Shown here piece after piece: positions 13,862-52,845 of a stretch of 64,000 nt of DNA (its first letter is position 1; every line of letters starts with the position of its first letter). The stretch is from an endosymbiont of Bathymodiolus septemdierum str. Myojin knoll (GTDB taxonomy: Bacteria; Pseudomonadota; Gammaproteobacteria; PS1; Pseudothioglobaceae): assembly GCF_001547755.1 (NCBI RefSeq), contig NZ_AP013042.1, forward strand, positions 1 to 64,000, in the 5' to 3' direction. The notes under the pieces are model-generated. The model did no database searches. It was given only the letters and a program-made list of their open reading frames with translations, and was not told the origin of the DNA. The translations under genes were made by a program, and so were the position numbers.

Positions 13862-14499
13862 AAGGATTGTTTATCAGTGGCAGTGGTACCGATGTGGGAA
13901 AAACATTTGTTGCCCGACATATTATTCAGATATTGAATGAAAAATACACGGTCATTGCCAGAAAACCAATTGAAAGCGACTGTATTAAAACCGACGCGGG
14001 GCTAATACCGAAAGATGCCAAAGTGTTAAATGACGCCTGTACAAATCCAGAGTCAATTGATATCGTTTGTCCTTTTAGATTTGAGGCACGCGTAAGTGGT
14101 GAAAAAGCCAGCGCTGAACAAGGCGCTATTGTGTGTTTGCAGGATTTGGTACAAGCGGTACAACCAACGAACGACAGTGATTTTGTGGTGATTGAGGGGG
14201 CTGGCGGGTTTTATTCTCCTATTGCACAGCAGGCGCTGAACAGTGATTTTGCATCCGCACTTGGGCTGTCCGTAGTGATTGTAGTGAAGGACGAATTGGG
14301 GGCAATTAATCAAGCATTGTTGAGTATAAATGCCGTCAAAAAGCATAAGTTAGATGTTGTGATGTTGGTGTTAAATCAGATAATACCGAATGATTTGGCT
14401 AATGCAGAAGCGTTAAGTGCGTATACAGATGTTAAGATAGTGGCTTTTAAAAAAGACCAAATAAAGGACTTTAATGCCAAAGTTTTGGCGTTAATCTAA
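13858..14499 (+). CDS. bioD: ATP-dependent dethiobiotin synthetase
   Basis: Closes the ureido ring of dethiobiotin from diaminopelargonate, CO2 and ATP, the penultimate step of biotin synthesis. The P-loop is SGSGTDVGKTFVARHI at the N-terminus, with the conserved RKPIESDC and VIEGAGGFYSP segments following. The 213-residue length is typical. An AAGGA at 13851-13855 precedes the ATG. No other bio genes are in the window. A very long hairpin begins immediately after the stop. Confidence 0.93.
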   Translation: MKGLFISGSGTDVGKTFVARHIIQILNEKYTVIARKPIESDCIKTDAGLIPKDAKVLNDACTNPESIDIVCPFRFEARVSGEKASAEQGAIVCLQDLVQAVQPTNDSDFVVIEGAGGFYSPIAQQALNSDFASALGLSVVIVVKDELGAINQALLSINAVKKHKLDVVMLVLNQIIPNDLANAEALSAYTDVKIVAFKKDQIKDFNAKVLALI

Positions 14500-14666
14500 T
14501 ACCCTAATCCAAAGATAGAAAGTGTGAATATGGCGTTAAGCCTTGCTATCACAGTGCTTTGTAAAAAATCTTAGTGCCACCCAGTGGTTCCACGGCGATT
14601 TTTTGAAAGTGCTGTGGTGGTAAGGGTTGGCGTCAGATTTGCGTTTTCTATTTTTGGATTAGGGTA
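14500..14666 (+). repeat. 167-bp imperfect inverted repeat (long RNA-type hairpin)
   Basis: The left arm 14500-14570 pairs with the right arm 14597-14666 over about 70 positions. By hand count, 54 are Watson-Crick pairs, 13 are G-U pairs in a + strand transcript, and there are two mismatches and one small bulge. The apex (14571-14596) contains CCAC-CCA-GTGG, which can fold further. It fills the whole gap between convergent bioD and sspB and its right end supplies the sspB stop codon. It may be a transcription barrier, a processed double-stranded RNA or a MITE. Confidence 0.8.
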
Positions 14667-15021
14667 ATACCGTAAAGATTGGTTTTTTCTCTTCTTCTGT
14701 CGTTGGTATGTTGTCATTATCAAAGAACATTCCTTCACCATTCTCAGCTGCATAAATTGTTAATACCGCCTCACAAGGAACAAAAACTTCTTGAGGTTTC
14801 CCATCAAATCTTGCTTTAAATGAAATAGATTCATTGCTAATTACTAAATTACTACTTGCTTGAGTAGCAATATTCAGTACGATTTTCCCTTGTTGGATAA
14901 ACATCTCAGGCACACTAACACCTGAGCAGGAACAGTCGACTAATATGTGCGGTGTAAGCCCAGAGTCTTCCATCCACTGATGGTAGGCTCTCATGAGATA
15001 AGGCGCTACAGAAGAAGCCAC
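14659..15021 (-). CDS. sspB: ClpXP protease specificity-enhancing factor SspB
   Basis: Adaptor that delivers SsrA-tagged proteins from stalled ribosomes to ClpXP. The 120-residue protein shows the substrate-binding fold: PYLMRAYHQWMEDSGLTPHI, then VDCSCSGVSVP and IVLNIA, and the FKARFDGKPQEVFVPCEAVL segment. The E. coli protein has a longer acidic tail ending in a ClpX-binding peptide; here a short tail ends KKPIFTVLP, still resembling the ClpX-docking XB peptide. It is just downstream of sspA, the conserved pairing. Confidence 0.9.
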   Translation of the reverse strand: MASSVAPYLMRAYHQWMEDSGLTPHILVDCSCSGVSVPEMFIQQGKIVLNIATQASSNLVISNESISFKARFDGKPQEVFVPCEAVLTIYAAENGEGMFFDNDNIPTTEEEKKPIFTVLP

Positions 15022-37654: not shown

Positions 37655-40600
37655 ATGAAAAACACAAAAACACTCATGCTAACCAACCTATTCAAAAGCA
37701 TCTTTAATGTTTTCAAAGTTTCTAAAAACACCCAAACCCACTCATCAATAGCAAATATCGCGGGGGGGCACATTTCTAATGTACTCAACAAACTCAAACA
37801 ACTCCTCCTCTTCAGCGCACTAACCTTATCACTGAATGTTACCGCTGTTGACAAGCCTCAAAGCTTTGATAAAGAAGCCTACTTAAACCTTAACCAAGAA
37901 TACAACTGGAACAACCCCCAAACTTATTACAAAAAAGACAACCAAGGGCTGCTAATACTCAAGCAAGTCGGTAGCACAGTGCGTAACACTCTAGGCGCTA
38001 CTAATTCAGACAATGCCAACCAATTTGGCAGCACACTTAAAGACAACCTTAAAAACCAAGCCATTAACCAAGCCGTTAGTGGTACCGAAGGCTATATCAA
38101 CAACAAAGCCAACGAATATGCCAATCAATTTGGCGCTGGTCGCACTGAAATCCAATTAGGTGGATTTAACTCAGAAGCACTCAATTACAACATTAGAACC
38201 ATTCAACCCCTCTCTGAACTTAACGAAGACAGCCAAGATTTAATCTTCTTCCAAGGACAACTAACCTCAGGTCAAAATCACAGCGAACGCCGTGAAACCT
38301 TAAACCTAGGTATCGGCTATCGCAAATTACTAGAAGCAGGGCAATCGATTGCCGGCATCAACCTCTTCACCGACTATGAAACCCAATCTGCACACAAACG
38401 CGCCAGCATCGGCTTAGAATACCAAAGAACCAATTTTAAAGCCAACTTTAACAAATACCAATCACTCTCAGACAAAAAAGTCATTGGTAGTTTTACTGAA
38501 GAAGTACTTGATGGTTATGATGTGAAACTAGAAGGACAAATCCCTTACCTGCCTTGGGCTAAAATCAAAGGCACCCGCTATGTTTGGGACAAAACCACCA
38601 ACGCCAACAGCGTAGATATTAAAGGCACCATTCTTGGTGTTGAAGTGCAACTCTCTGACGCCGCTCGCTTTGAGTTCGGCACTGAGAAGTCCAACAGCGC
38701 TGATAGTAACAGCTACGCCCGCCTAAGCATGGCAATACCTTTTAAAGACAGTAAGTTCACCAACTTTAAAATAGCCGATAAAGCCTTTAAAAACACAAAC
38801 AAAATGCAATTGGGTGAATTTGCCTGGGTAGAACGAAGCAACAAAATCCGTATTGAAAAAGTCACAAATGGTGGCACTATTATCCTAGGTGAATACAATG
38901 CCTTTACTGTCGGCGCAACTTGTACCATCACTGACAGTGCAAGCGTATCAACAGTCGCAACCACAGAAGCCGATGGCTCTGTTACCCTGCCAAGTCTTAG
39001 TATTCCAGCAGGCTTAGTGACTATGAGTTGTACTGGCGGTACTTACACCGATGAGGCAACTAACGCTGCAGGCACCGTAGCAGCAACTCTTCGTGTAGCT
39101 ACGATTTACTCAGGCACAGGTCCTTTAACGATTTTAGCCTCACCACTGTCTGAAATTGCTTATCAATTGGCAGACGCAGCAGGTGGTATTGCAACTGATA
39201 TTACCGCTCAAAACATCGCTGTTGCAACCGCCTTTGGTATCGCAGGGGTTGACCTTGCTGCCACCATTCCAACCGACATTAGCCCTACCACTGGCACTGT
39301 CGCAGGCAATGACCCTGCAGGCAAGTTTGCTATTGCCTTAGCCGCTGTCTCACAGATAATGGAAAACTCAGCCACCGACGGTGGACAATCGCCCTCTGCT
39401 GCAAAGGCAACGACACTTATTACTGCCCTAGTAACTGATATGGGCGATGGTGACATCGATGGCATAGATGACGGTACTGGCACTATGATTGATATCGCTA
39501 TGGCAATTAGTAACTTTGATAACGGCACAGGCAATAACAACCCAGCCGCCGATACTGGAAGTAGTAATACAGGCACTGCAGCCACAGCCACTGGCGAAGG
39601 CTCTATCAAAGGCAACCTAGCCATTCTTAAAATTAGTAACTATGATGGCACTAATGCAGTGCCAACTGTGCAAGACTACGTTGATGCTGGCGTAACTGGT
39701 GTTACTGCAGCTAATTTAGTAGAAGTCAACAAAAAGGCTGACACAGCAACAACTACTGATTCTGATAGTACTGTTGAAATCCAGGCATTAGTTGATAGTG
39801 TTGCTGCTGCTGCTGCCTCTGACAGTGTGCTAGCCGATATTGGTACTGATGTTAATACTGCTAGCACCTCTGACACCACCATTGCTGAGTTTGGCAGTAT
39901 CTTGCCAGCACTCACTGATTTTGTGAATGCCAACTTGAGCGCTTATCAAACTTACATTGATGCCAACCCAGGCAGTTTTACCTCGCCTGCCACGCAAGCT
40001 GAAGTACAAGCAATGATTACTGCGGTGAATGCTGCGGTAACTGCTGCTGCCTCTGACAGTGTGCTAGCCGATATTGGCACTGATGCTAATACTGCTAGCA
40101 CCTCTGACACCACCATTGCTGAGTTTGGCAGTATCTTGCCAGCACTCACTGATTTTGTGAATGCCAACTTGAGCGCTTATCAAACTTACATTGATGCCAA
40201 CCCAGGCAGTTTTGCCTCGCCTGCCACGCAAGCTGAAGTACAAGCAATGATTACTGCGGTGAATGCTGCGGTAACTGCTGCTGCTTCTGACAGTGTGCTA
40301 GCCGATATTGGTACTGATGCTAATACTGCTAGCACCTCTGACACCACCATTGCTGAGTTTGGCAGTATCTTGCCAGCACTCACTGATTTTGTGAATGCCA
40401 ACTTGAGCGCTTATCAAACTTACATTGATGCCAACCCAGGCAGTTTTGCCTCGCCTGCCACGCAGGCTGAAGTACAAGCAATGATTACTGCGGTGAATGC
40501 TGCGGTAACTGCTGCTGCTGCCTCTGACAGTGTGCTAGCCGATATTGGTACTGATGCTAATACTGCTAGCACCTCTGACACCACCATTGCTGAGTTTGGC

Positions 40601-41683
40601 AGTATCTTGCCAGCACTCACTGATTTTGTGAATGCCAACTTGAGCGCTTATCAAACTTACATTGATGCCAACCCAGGCAGTTTTGCCTCGCCTGCCACGC
40701 AAGCTGAAGTACAAGCAATGATTACTGCGGTGAATGCTGCGGTAATTCTTGCTACTGTCTCCGTTAGTAATTCAACTGTAACTGCTACTCCAAGCAGTGT
40801 TGTTGCCGATGGTAGCACAACTTCAACCATTACCCTACAAGTTAAGGATGCTAGCAACAACAACCTTACTATAGGCGGTCTAACCGTTACCATGAGTGCG
40901 AGTGGTTCAGCGGCAGTGTCAAGTGTTACTGACAATACTGACGGTACTTACACAGCGATTATTACTAACAGCACAGTTGAGACGGTTACTATAACTGCTG
41001 CATTTGGTGGCTCTAATGTTACTAATACAGCGGATGTCACCTTTACTTTCGTCTCAGAGACCATTACCTTTGGTGGTGGAAGCTATAAAACCGTTCTTTC
41101 TCCAGATACAGGCAAAGTATGGCTAGATAGAAACTTAGGTGCAACAGCTGTTTGTAGTGCTAGTGGTGGTGCGACTAACCCTTGTTATGGTGATCTATAC
41201 CAATGGGGTAGAAGGGCTGATGGACATGAAGATAGAACAAATATTAGCACATCAGGTACACTGACTTCTGATGTCACCAATGCGGGCACGACGCTATTTA
41301 TTACTAGTGCTAGTGATTGGGCGAGTGTAGATTCAATAGGTACATCGCGTACAGCCGCTTGGGCGGATGGTGGAAGTAATGACATTTGTCCAGCAGGCTT
41401 TAGTGTGCCAACTGAGGCCGAGCTAACCGCTGATACCATCAGTGCCACTACCACGGATATTACCAACTCTGCCACAGCCTTCTCCAGCTTCTTGAAAATC
41501 CCAGTTGCTGGCAGTCGCTTTCGGTCGAATGGCACGCTTGACTCTGTTGGCACTATCGCCATCTTGTGGAGTCGCTCTGCTGGTGGGTCGAATGCTCGCG
41601 CTTTGGCCATCGGTAGCGGCAGTGCGGCCTTCTTCAGCGGTAGTCGTGCCCTCGGCTTTAGTGTTCGTTGCATTAAGGATTAA
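37655..41683 (+). CDS. Inverse autotransporter (intimin/invasin-like) adhesin with DGR-type C-lectin tip
   Basis: A 1342-residue surface protein. An unusually long N-terminal signal region (hydrophobic LLLFSALTLSLNVTAV near residue 50) leads to an inverse-autotransporter beta-barrel at about 150-400. Barrel landmarks are QPLSELNEDSQDLIFFQGQ, ETLNLGIGYRKLL, GINLFTDYE and KRASIGLEYQ. Next come a threonine/serine/alanine-rich passenger, four 78-residue tandem repeats (about 721-1031), and one Big-1 Ig-like domain (TPSSVVADGSTTSTITLQV). The tip is a C-type-lectin/FGE-like domain: VWLDRNLGAT, GDLYQWGRR, CPAGFSVPTEAE, SVRCIKD. Base composition is richer in GC than the AT-rich housekeeping genes. 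A host-contact role is inferred. A reverse-transcriptase fragment follows downstream. Confidence 0.9.
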   Translation: MKNTKTLMLTNLFKSIFNVFKVSKNTQTHSSIANIAGGHISNVLNKLKQLLLFSALTLSLNVTAVDKPQSFDKEAYLNLNQEYNWNNPQTYYKKDNQGLLILKQVGSTVRNTLGATNSDNANQFGSTLKDNLKNQAINQAVSGTEGYINNKANEYANQFGAGRTEIQLGGFNSEALNYNIRTIQPLSELNEDSQDLIFFQGQLTSGQNHSERRETLNLGIGYRKLLEAGQSIAGINLFTDYETQSAHKRASIGLEYQRTNFKANFNKYQSLSDKKVIGSFTEEVLDGYDVKLEGQIPYLPWAKIKGTRYVWDKTTNANSVDIKGTILGVEVQLSDAARFEFGTEKSNSADSNSYARLSMAIPFKDSKFTNFKIADKAFKNTNKMQLGEFAWVERSNKIRIEKVTNGGTIILGEYNAFTVGATCTITDSASVSTVATTEADGSVTLPSLSIPAGLVTMSCTGGTYTDEATNAAGTVAATLRVATIYSGTGPLTILASPLSEIAYQLADAAGGIATDITAQNIAVATAFGIAGVDLAATIPTDISPTTGTVAGNDPAGKFAIALAAVSQIMENSATDGGQSPSAAKATTLITALVTDMGDGDIDGIDDGTGTMIDIAMAISNFDNGTGNNNPAADTGSSNTGTAATATGEGSIKGNLAILKISNYDGTNAVPTVQDYVDAGVTGVTAANLVEVNKKADTATTTDSDSTVEIQALVDSVAAAAASDSVLADIGTDVNTASTSDTTIAEFGSILPALTDFVNANLSAYQTYIDANPGSFTSPATQAEVQAMITAVNAAVTAAASDSVLADIGTDANTASTSDTTIAEFGSILPALTDFVNANLSAYQTYIDANPGSFASPATQAEVQAMITAVNAAVTAAASDSVLADIGTDANTASTSDTTIAEFGSILPALTDFVNANLSAYQTYIDANPGSFASPATQAEVQAMITAVNAAVTAAAASDSVLADIGTDANTASTSDTTIAEFGSILPALTDFVNANLSAYQTYIDANPGSFASPATQAEVQAMITAVNAAVILATVSVSNSTVTATPSSVVADGSTTSTITLQVKDASNNNLTIGGLTVTMSASGSAAVSSVTDNTDGTYTAIITNSTVETVTITAAFGGSNVTNTADVTFTFVSETITFGGGSYKTVLSPDTGKVWLDRNLGATAVCSASGGATNPCYGDLYQWGRRADGHEDRTNISTSGTLTSDVTNAGTTLFITSASDWASVDSIGTSRTAAWADGGSNDICPAGFSVPTEAELTADTISATTTDITNSATAFSSFLKIPVAGSRFRSNGTLDSVGTIAILWSRSAGGSNARALAIGSGSAAFFSGSRALGFSVRCIKD
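39815..40748 (+). repeat. Four tandem 234-bp coding repeats in the adhesin stalk
   Basis: Copies begin at 39815, 40049, 40283 and 40520; the fourth copy is offset by one extra GCT (alanine) codon. Each encodes SDSVLADIGTD and, further on, FGSILPALTDFVNANLSAYQ. The copies are nearly identical at DNA level, implying recent expansion or gene conversion. Such arrays change copy number by slippage or recombination. The antisense frames in this array are artefacts of the repeat. Confidence 0.95.
41510..41683 (+). other. Candidate DGR variable region (VR)
   Basis: The terminal region encodes GSRFRSNGTLDSVGT, LWSRSAGGSNARALAIGSG and SGSRALGFSVRCIKD. This matches DGR target proteins, in which AAY codons of a template become NNY in the variable repeat. 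From 41566 to 41671 only 9 of 106 bases are A, and the apparent variable codons (GCT, GCC, ATC, GGT, GGC, TTC, CTC) all end in C or T. The limits of the VR are inferred; I found no template repeat in the window. Confidence 0.65.
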
Positions 41684-51247: not shown

Positions 51248-51942
51248 TGAAACGCAGTTTTATTCTACCTGGCGTCTTAATATCTCTAACGATATGGGGT
51301 TTGATGTCATTAGGGTTTTGGCAGTTAGACCGCGCCGATGAAAAACGCGCGATTGAACGCGCTATCACTTTAGCGGAATCAAACCCCGCGCAACTTATAT
51401 CAAGTGTTGATGAATTGCTTAACAAAGAACATTACCAAGTATTGCTTAAAGGTCATTATGATAACAATAAACAATTCATTTATGACAATCAAATTGTCAA
51501 CAGTACCGCAGGTTATTATGTTTTAACACCTTTTATCTTTGAAAACAAAAGCGCTATTTTGGTCAATCGAGGTTTTGTGCCTTGGTATGGAAATCGCAAC
51601 AAATTGGCCAACATTAAAATTAACAATGAAACCACTATTATTCAAGTCAAATTAATTATTCCCAAAGAGCGTATTAAACTCAAGCAACAGACTGTCAATA
51701 AAAATTTCCCAATCCTAATCCAATCTTTAAATATAGAACGACTCTCACAACTTTCTGGATACCAGGTTGTGCCAATGTTGGCACAGTTAGATGTGGATGC
51801 TAAAAATGGCTTTTATCGCAAATGGCAACCCTTTTATGGCAGTGTTGACAAACACTTGGGTTACGCATTACAATGGTTTTTGATGGCGTTGGTGTTGAGT
51901 TTTATTGCTATTTATCTATTAAGGAAAAACAGTAGAAAATAA
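51247..51942 (+). CDS. SURF1 family cytochrome oxidase assembly protein
   Basis: Helps insert haem a into subunit I. Two membrane helices flank a periplasmic loop: GLMSLGFWQLDRADEKR at the N-terminus, YYVLTPFIFENKSAILVNRG in the middle, and HLGYALQWFLMALVLS near the end, all characteristic of SURF1. 231 residues. The stop codon lies inside the target duplication of the IS1595-like element. Confidence 0.9.
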   Translation: MKRSFILPGVLISLTIWGLMSLGFWQLDRADEKRAIERAITLAESNPAQLISSVDELLNKEHYQVLLKGHYDNNKQFIYDNQIVNSTAGYYVLTPFIFENKSAILVNRGFVPWYGNRNKLANIKINNETTIIQVKLIIPKERIKLKQQTVNKNFPILIQSLNIERLSQLSGYQVVPMLAQLDVDAKNGFYRKWQPFYGSVDKHLGYALQWFLMALVLSFIAIYLLRKNSRK

Positions 51943-51944
51943 TT

Positions 51945-52692
51945 TTGGGTCTTAACTAGTTAAGCAATTAAAAATTGCTTAAGATACTAGTTATGACAAG
52001 GAAAAATAAGTATTACAACCGCTCAAGACTTTCAGAGGCAAAATTTAGAGAGATAATTAAATATTTTTCTCTAGATTTAAGTGCCACACAAATTGCACAC
52101 ACAAATTTAAATTTAAATACTGTTAATAAATTTTGACACTTGTAAGAATAAGAATTTTTGAATTATCAGCCCAAGATCAACTTCAATCTGCCCCACTAGT
52201 GGGGCAGATTGAAGTTGATGAAAGTTACTTTGGCGCACGGCGCATCCGCGGGAAACGCGGTAGAGGCGCCAGAGGTAAAACAATAGTATTTGGCTTATTA
52301 AAACGAGGAGATAAGGTCTATACTCAAATTATAGAAAAGTGTGATAGAATAACGCTTCACAGTATAATAAAAGACAAAACATCAACCGATAGTATTATTA
52401 ATTCTGATGGATGGCGTGGACATAATGGCTTAGTAGATTTTGGCTATAAAAAGCATTACCGTGTTCATCACGGCAAGAATGAATTTGCCAGAGGAAATTC
52501 TCATATTAACGGTATTGAATCTTTTTGGGATTATGCTAAAATTAGACTAGTAAAATTTAAAGGAATGAATAAAAAAATGTTTAAATACCACCTTAAAGAA
52601 TGTGAATTTAGATTTAATAATCGCAAGCAAGATGTGTATAAAATCTTGCTTGATAATTTTCGAAAAAATCCGCTTAACTAGTTAAGACCCTA
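51945..52692 (+). mobile_element. IS1595-family insertion sequence (ISXO2-like)
   Basis: Perfect 19-bp inverted repeats: GGGTCTTAACTAGTTAAGC at 51947-51965, reversed at 52672-52690. An 8-bp target duplication AAATAATT flanks it (51937-51944 and 52693-52700), so the insertion is precise and fairly recent. A palindrome AAGCAATT-AAA-AATTGCTT lies inside the left end. The transposase is frameshifted. Confidence 0.9.
51993..52681 (+). pseudogene. Frameshifted IS1595-family transposase
   Basis: Frame 1 (51993-52136) encodes MTRKNKYYNRSRLSEAKF to NLNTVNKF and stops. Frame 2 (52133-52681) continues with the DDE core: GQIEVDESYFGARRIRGKR near its start, NSDGWRGHN, and GNSHINGIESFWDYAK. The two parts are joined by one missing base in an A/T run near 52130. 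Either a decayed gene or, less likely, one needing ribosomal frameshifting; the run is not in phase with a canonical -1 slippery heptamer. Confidence 0.85.
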
Positions 52693-52845
52693 AAATAATT
52701 CTAAGCAAAGAAAAAGCCAAAAAACTCAGTGCTTTTTTCTTTTGGACTTCTTGGGCGGCATCAACTAACAGGCCTGGCGACGACATCACTTATACCAGTA
52801 ATTGGCCACATGAGCCACTAATAGATAATACCCCGTCTCCAGGTA
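52693..52845 (+). pseudogene. norB fragment (qNOR, internal part)
   Basis: The frame reads LSKEKAKKLSAFFFWTSWAA, then STNRPGDDITYTSNWPHEPL and IDNTPSPGT. This is the periplasmic/helix segment of quinol-dependent nitric oxide reductase. It has no N-terminus and stops matching at about 52845, where IS3-like DNA begins. Confidence 0.8.

Follow-up and report, generated by a model that had tools for sequence, protein, structure and literature searches.

The convergent genes bioD and sspB in the endosymbiont of Bathymodiolus septemdierum str. Myojin knoll (contig NZ_AP013042.1) meet at a long hairpin that occupies the entire gap between them. The hairpin lies in the window, i.e., the stretch of 64,000 nucleotides (positions 1 to 64,000) that was analyzed as a whole. 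A sequence-only reading had noticed that the arms differ almost exclusively by changes compatible with G-U pairing in a + strand RNA, and had left the choice between selection on an RNA fold and strand-biased mutation, as well as between a local terminator or regulator and a mobile element. The questions raised by this locus are whether the hairpin serves the two adjacent genes or belongs to a dispersed family, and what process generated the asymmetry between its strands.

The hairpin is a MITE inserted between bioD and sspB

The hairpin was proposed to span 14500-14666; its presence stood, and its limits were corrected to 14502-14664, an exact extent of 163 bp that forms a near-perfect palindrome with the direct repeat TAATA on both sides (Table 1). 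The element fills the convergent bioD/sspB gap and its right end supplies the last bases of sspB including the stop codon, as had been read from the sequence. The two genes are convergent without the element in 13 relatives, in which the empty site reads GCGTTAATC-TAATA, and the window copy is thus a lineage-specific insertion. It is a recently inserted MITE with a 5-bp duplication, and its insertion altered the last sspB codons.

Table 1. Features of the palindromic element and its insertion site in the window
Feature	Position	Strand	Evidence or remark
Left target-site duplication TAATA	14497..14501	.	Sequence; empty site in relatives; 5-bp duplications across family copies
Full-length palindromic MITE, family A	14502..14664	+ (GU-compatible strand)	Folding, copies, model R1 match
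Left terminal inverted repeat CCCTAATCCAAAGATAGAAA	14502..14521	+	Matches IS1380-family IS ends
Tandem wobble, 5' half (U14555.G14611, G14556.U14610)	14555..14556	+	Conserved among 24 aligned homologues
Apical motif CACCC-AGT-GGTT	14578..14589	+	Near-invariant among 24 homologues
Tandem wobble, 3' half	14610..14611	+	Conserved among 24 aligned homologues
Right terminal inverted repeat, reads TTTCTATTTTTGGATTAGGG on +	14645..14664	-	Holds sspB stop codon 14659-14661
Right target-site duplication TAATA	14665..14669	.	Sequence; empty site; family duplications

The same genome (one contig of 1,469,434 bp) contains two more copies that are 98% identical, a third at 84% identity, and several truncated ones. 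Other members of the bacterial family carry full-length family A copies with identities of approximately 71-93%, the carriers including genomes assigned to Candidatus Thiodubiliella endoseptemdiera, Candidatus Thioglobus pontius, and another Thioglobus MAG, and the Bathymodiolus azoricus thioautotrophic symbiont displayed short matches. An exact 5-bp direct repeat flanks 24 of the 49 family A copies with both ends present, as opposed to a single copy in a shifted control; repeats of different length are not conspicuous. The dispersed copies, these duplications, and the 13 empty sites confirm the MITE origin, for which a search for other copies had been suggested as the check. The element is short, has terminal inverted repeats, and holds no transposase ORF within its 163 bp; by these sequence traits it classifies as a non-autonomous, fully palindromic MITE with IS1380-family ends, with IS1380 as its putative mobiliser.

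Several derivatives of family A were encountered. A 205-bp variant with an insert of approximately 42 nt near the apex is present in about 10 copies in genome G056 (e.g., L061, L064, L066, L106, and L110), so the extra stem did not block spread. Short derivatives of 65-76 bp, some with exact 5-bp repeats, were detected at L006, L008, and L013, and in the Thiodubiliella genome G050 at C1:707914-707980 and 1206890-1206955; those at L006 and L008 have one deletion junction in common, at a GAAAGTG direct repeat. A family A copy at L104 is interrupted by a nested hairpin MITE similar to family B, with ends AGACCCCTGCAT (L104:218-545).

A local function in cis, such as a double-strand terminator, an RNase III site, or a regulator of bioD and sspB, would agree with an element that spans the space between the convergent genes and contributes the sspB terminus. 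This function is contradicted by the 13 relatives that lack the element at the junction and by a terminator scan, which found no intrinsic terminator (a U tract immediately after a GC-rich stem), the U6 tract of the element being paired with A6 inside the helix. Moreover, relative to the flanking genes 20 copies are co-directional and 29 opposed over two sets (18/26 and 2/3), i.e., there is no orientation preference, which also speaks against any straightforward gain from inserting co-directionally. The local terminator or regulator that had been suggested for this junction is consequently hardly credible, and the window copy by itself probably serves neither bioD nor sspB.

Putative IS1380-family partners

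The MITE ends match those of IS1380-family ISs at L155, L250, and L341, and the IS1380 transposase was identified by NF033539 in G054 and G387. In G054, a 1718-bp IS has nearly the same 20-bp ends and carries an IS1380-family transposase in broken frames, a related IS in G052 has such ends together with the 5-bp repeat CTTAT, and in G387, which belongs to another family, the IS1380 bears that genome's own end variant, CCC(T/A)AATCCCCAGATAG. Transposase matches were obtained in G051, G052, G054, G058, and G071, with a weak one in G050, and none in the genome of the window or in G056. As its own genome has no IS1380 match, family A may no longer be mobile there.

The IS1380 copies contain a CACCC..GGGTG dyad approximately 88 bp from the right end (L155:5371-5384, L341:2782-2795, and the right end at L250). 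The dyad at L155 sits in the 5' coding region of the transposase and resembles the MITE apex, a likeness that is not significant as homology. Derivation of the MITE interior from the IS1380 right end through this dyad was considered; the similarity was mostly not above shuffles, and such an origin is not claimed.

Strand asymmetry of the fold in family A

The hairpin is far above chance expectation. Folded as RNA, the palindrome reaches about -94 kcal/mol on the + strand and about -52 on the - strand; for the segment 14480-14690 the values are -98.7 kcal/mol (z = -12.3) and -56 (z = -5.7), respectively, with z scores computed against dinucleotide shuffles. An arm alignment with equal penalty for G.T and A.C gave 79 pairs, of which 58 are Watson-Crick, 15 are G.T, none is A.C, and 6 are transversion-type mismatches, and a binomial test of 15:0 yields p = 6e-5. 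The initial counts of about 70 pairs and 13 transitions are revised by this alignment, whereas the direction of the differences, G-U compatible without exception, and the conclusion drawn from it hold.

The asymmetry is old and common to the lineages. Intact copies of 162-163 bp in all lineages carry 8-15 G.T and 0-2 A.C, always on the same element strand. Across ten lineages 45 distinct G.U states, distributed over 43 of the 79 pair columns, were counted versus 11 A.C states, which indicates that wobble pairs turn over and do not represent a single frozen set. In alignment A1, comprising 18 copies from the Thioglobaceae family, 96.1% of the cells are paired versus 86.3% in shuffles, and changes on both sides have occurred in 25 of 70 pairs; the covariance analysis over related genomes that had been proposed thus came out in favor of a maintained fold.

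Mutations in resident copies follow another pattern. Private mutations, i.e., changes found in one copy only within clusters of near-identical copies, were collected for family A in two genomes and for the IS5-ended family B in three. They converted Watson-Crick pairs to G.T 38 times and to A.C 34 times, with 44 C>T plus A>G changes versus 56 G>A plus T>C changes, so resident copies decay without strand bias. Source lineages, unlike these private mutations, carry G.T to A.C at 15:0, 13:0, or approximately 9:1. Variants present in at least two copies are intermediate, with 13 G.T versus 9 A.C and no clear bias, implying that the short-term filter is weak or that selection acts elsewhere. Unbiased decay of residents in biased lineages points to selection on the lineages that keep spreading and not on the window copy. 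The proposed selection on the + strand fold is accordingly retained for the spreading lineages of the element and abandoned for the site in the window.

Strand-biased mutation of the source copy (C to T together with A to G, confined to a single strand and without selection) would yield G.T pairs alone, precisely as in the window copy, and had been raised as the alternative on these grounds. It is contradicted by the nearly equal private mutations in both classes and by direction, it cannot produce the 37 pairs with both-side changes in the class-level alignment described below, and the bias follows the strand of the element whatever the genomic strand, which makes this explanation very improbable. 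Repair of the palindrome by template switching during replication, with no need for selection, deserves mention since template switching has been reported as a source of compensatory change in RNA stems (PMC8794818). Such repair would turn G.T and A.C equally back into Watson-Crick pairs, and it leaves both the 15:0 ratio and the class-level ratio of 212 versus 17 unexplained, and resident copies decay with no visible repair; there is very little chance that it accounts for the pattern.

A shared interior across Gammaproteobacteria

Model R1, which was built from family A and favors such hairpins, matches the window copy with 170.6 bits, this copy being part of its own building set, and it detected full-length elements of 159-164 nt, mostly multi-copy, in 10 further genomes from 8 other gammaproteobacterial families. 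Their interiors can be aligned to the window copy through GTGCAAGATATTGGTTTCACAGTG, through an apex that has CACCC..GGUU and is flanked by A5/U5, and through GCTGTGGAATCAAGAGCTTGTGC. Among 24 aligned copies over the class 93.9% of the cells are paired versus 78.2% when shuffled, extending the covariance result, and changes on both sides were found in 37 of 64 pairs, including flips from C-G to G-C; G-U combinations outnumber A-C by 212 to 17. Of the two pairs of the tandem wobble, the U.G is conserved in 18 and the G.U in 15 of the 24 homologues, and at the apex CACCC and three of the four GGTT bases are invariant (24/24), the other G being present in 23.

The apex and the tandem U.G/G.U wobble are common to elements with different ends and with 5-bp or 3-bp duplications. 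One class-level group has the ends ACCTGAATCC, with an exact 3-bp repeat in 4 of 7 cases, and a transposase for this type was not found; these cases, few as seven are, suggest another transposase acting on the same interior. Neither the element nor its homologues matched Rfam at the gathering score, searches with one class-level member gave no match in plasmids or phages, nor did blastn against E. coli genomes, and the exact apex patterns were absent from viral contigs. We tentatively propose, at somewhat short of even odds, that a structured RNA of approximately 120-160 nt, absent from Rfam, sits inside palindromic transposons throughout the Gammaproteobacteria, has been joined to the ends of different transposases (with duplications of 5 bp and 3 bp), and promotes the spread of the element as RNA.

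Other palindromic families and repeats

Family B consists of IS5-ended elements of 161 bp with ends GAGACCTTTGCATAA; an exact 5-bp repeat flanks 58 of its 87 copies, and its lineage consensuses each display 8-10 G.T to 1 A.C. A survey of every palindrome whose arms reach approximately 50 or above, covering the loci collected for families A and B and not a random genome sample, revealed further types at 9:1, 11:0, 4:1, and 7:0. In the sponge symbiont SB0662_bin_52, elements of 166 bp have the same ends, size, and duplication as family A with another interior, and together total approximately 68 G.T versus 77 A.C; they are an imperfect control, their fold not being one clean hairpin.

The genome of the window holds two 1243-bp IS5-family ISs (L214:1421-2663 and L217:707-1949) with ends GAGACCTTTGC, one of them with the 5-bp repeat AATAA, and these are likely the partner of family B. 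In G050, at least 41 family B copies within C1:43953-386579 are 100% identical and represent a very recent burst. Elsewhere in the window, 29-bp inverted repeats (90%) at 51937-52700 surround a 182-aa ORF resembling an IS1595-type transposase, probably constituting a complete IS, and four nearly identical tandem repeats of 234-237 bp at 39804-40753 lie within a 1342-aa ORF (37655-41683) reminiscent of an invasin-type surface protein.

RNA or single-stranded DNA

The reading preferred here, to which we assign a probability of roughly two in three, is that selection maintained the fold of one strand in spreading lineages, most likely as RNA, while single copies decay. The preference for RNA derives from the tandem wobble and the apical motif, which are conserved across bacterial families and different ends. 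The main rival is selection of the fold as single-stranded DNA, during transposition, replication, or DNA uptake. G.T is better tolerated than A.C in DNA too, the DNA folding energy favors the same strand (-42.7 kcal/mol for + versus -26.8), and the lack of gene-orientation bias agrees with a role independent of local transcription. As DNA and RNA energies both favor this strand, energy does not separate the two. A role as single-stranded DNA is nevertheless unlikely: the transposases of IS1380 and IS5 belong to the DDE enzymes, whose substrates are double-stranded ends, the tandem wobble and apical motif kept across end types look like RNA, and IS1380-type ends with another interior show no bias.

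The MITE inserted at the bioD/sspB junction with its 5-bp duplication, and selection for the folding of one strand presumably acts on the lineages still spreading. The RNA hairpin might be cut or protected by double-strand-RNA enzymes, e.g., RNase III, a step that is possible and on balance rather doubtful; an inserted copy could then disturb transcripts less, or give a small RNA useful to the element. The G.U pairs would preserve the helix in RNA and at the same time spare the DNA from forming a perfect palindrome, which is unstable.

Hairpin MITEs are commonly taken as debris defined by their ends. The arms of the present elements hold a strand-specific record of selection that is readable from sequence, with G.U allowed and A.C removed in the long term while single copies drift, and the conserved one-strand fold suggests that these "junk" elements carry a working RNA. 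If the RNA reading is true, a mobile non-coding RNA family has been overlooked in many Gammaproteobacteria, and MITE hairpins acting as RNA become a testable question.

Comparison with known elements

The freely accessible literature, of which an incomplete part was covered, contained no account of IS1380 MITEs with such a fold or of the apex sequence, no test of G.U over A.C for source-level selection in MITEs, and no case in which the ends of different transposons enclose one hairpin interior. That palindromic MITEs can have roles at the RNA level is already known (PMC2229807, PMC2267715, PMC5896051). ERIC/IRU and YPAL of enterobacteria are palindromic MITEs, and RNA-level effects of MITE hairpins on neighboring mRNAs have been reported (PMC2229807, PMC2267715), the capacity to form a stem-loop being common to both strands unless GU pairing is essential (PMC2267715). 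They resemble the present element in being intergenic, approximately 127-169 bp long, and folded as a single long stem-loop, and differ, by description, in their ends and sequence. Arm transitions in two E. coli ERIC copies amounted to 1 G.T:1 A.C and 1:0, too few for an asymmetry to be visible.

The bcr1 element of the Bacillus cereus group, approximately 155 bp in length, combines mobile-element traits with a predicted RNA fold; its host belongs to the Firmicutes and its likeness to the MITE is one of description only. Hairpins of Correia/NEMIS elements undergo RNase III cleavage. As RNA, these MITE hairpins of Neisseria participate in the regulation of transcripts from adjacent genes (PMC2229807), and they were distinguished by description, having 24-bp ends with TA termini and other hosts. 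QMITE1 and QMITE2 of Coxiella (CbsR13 and CbsR16) are long-palindrome MITEs with transcribed members that have different ends and repeats of 2-4 or 7-9 bp, and the accessible part of their description does not discuss strand asymmetry of wobble pairs (PMC5896051). The IS1380 family differs from the MITE, which has no transposase and an interior that is not demonstrably IS-derived, and shares with it the end sequence and the 5-bp duplication.
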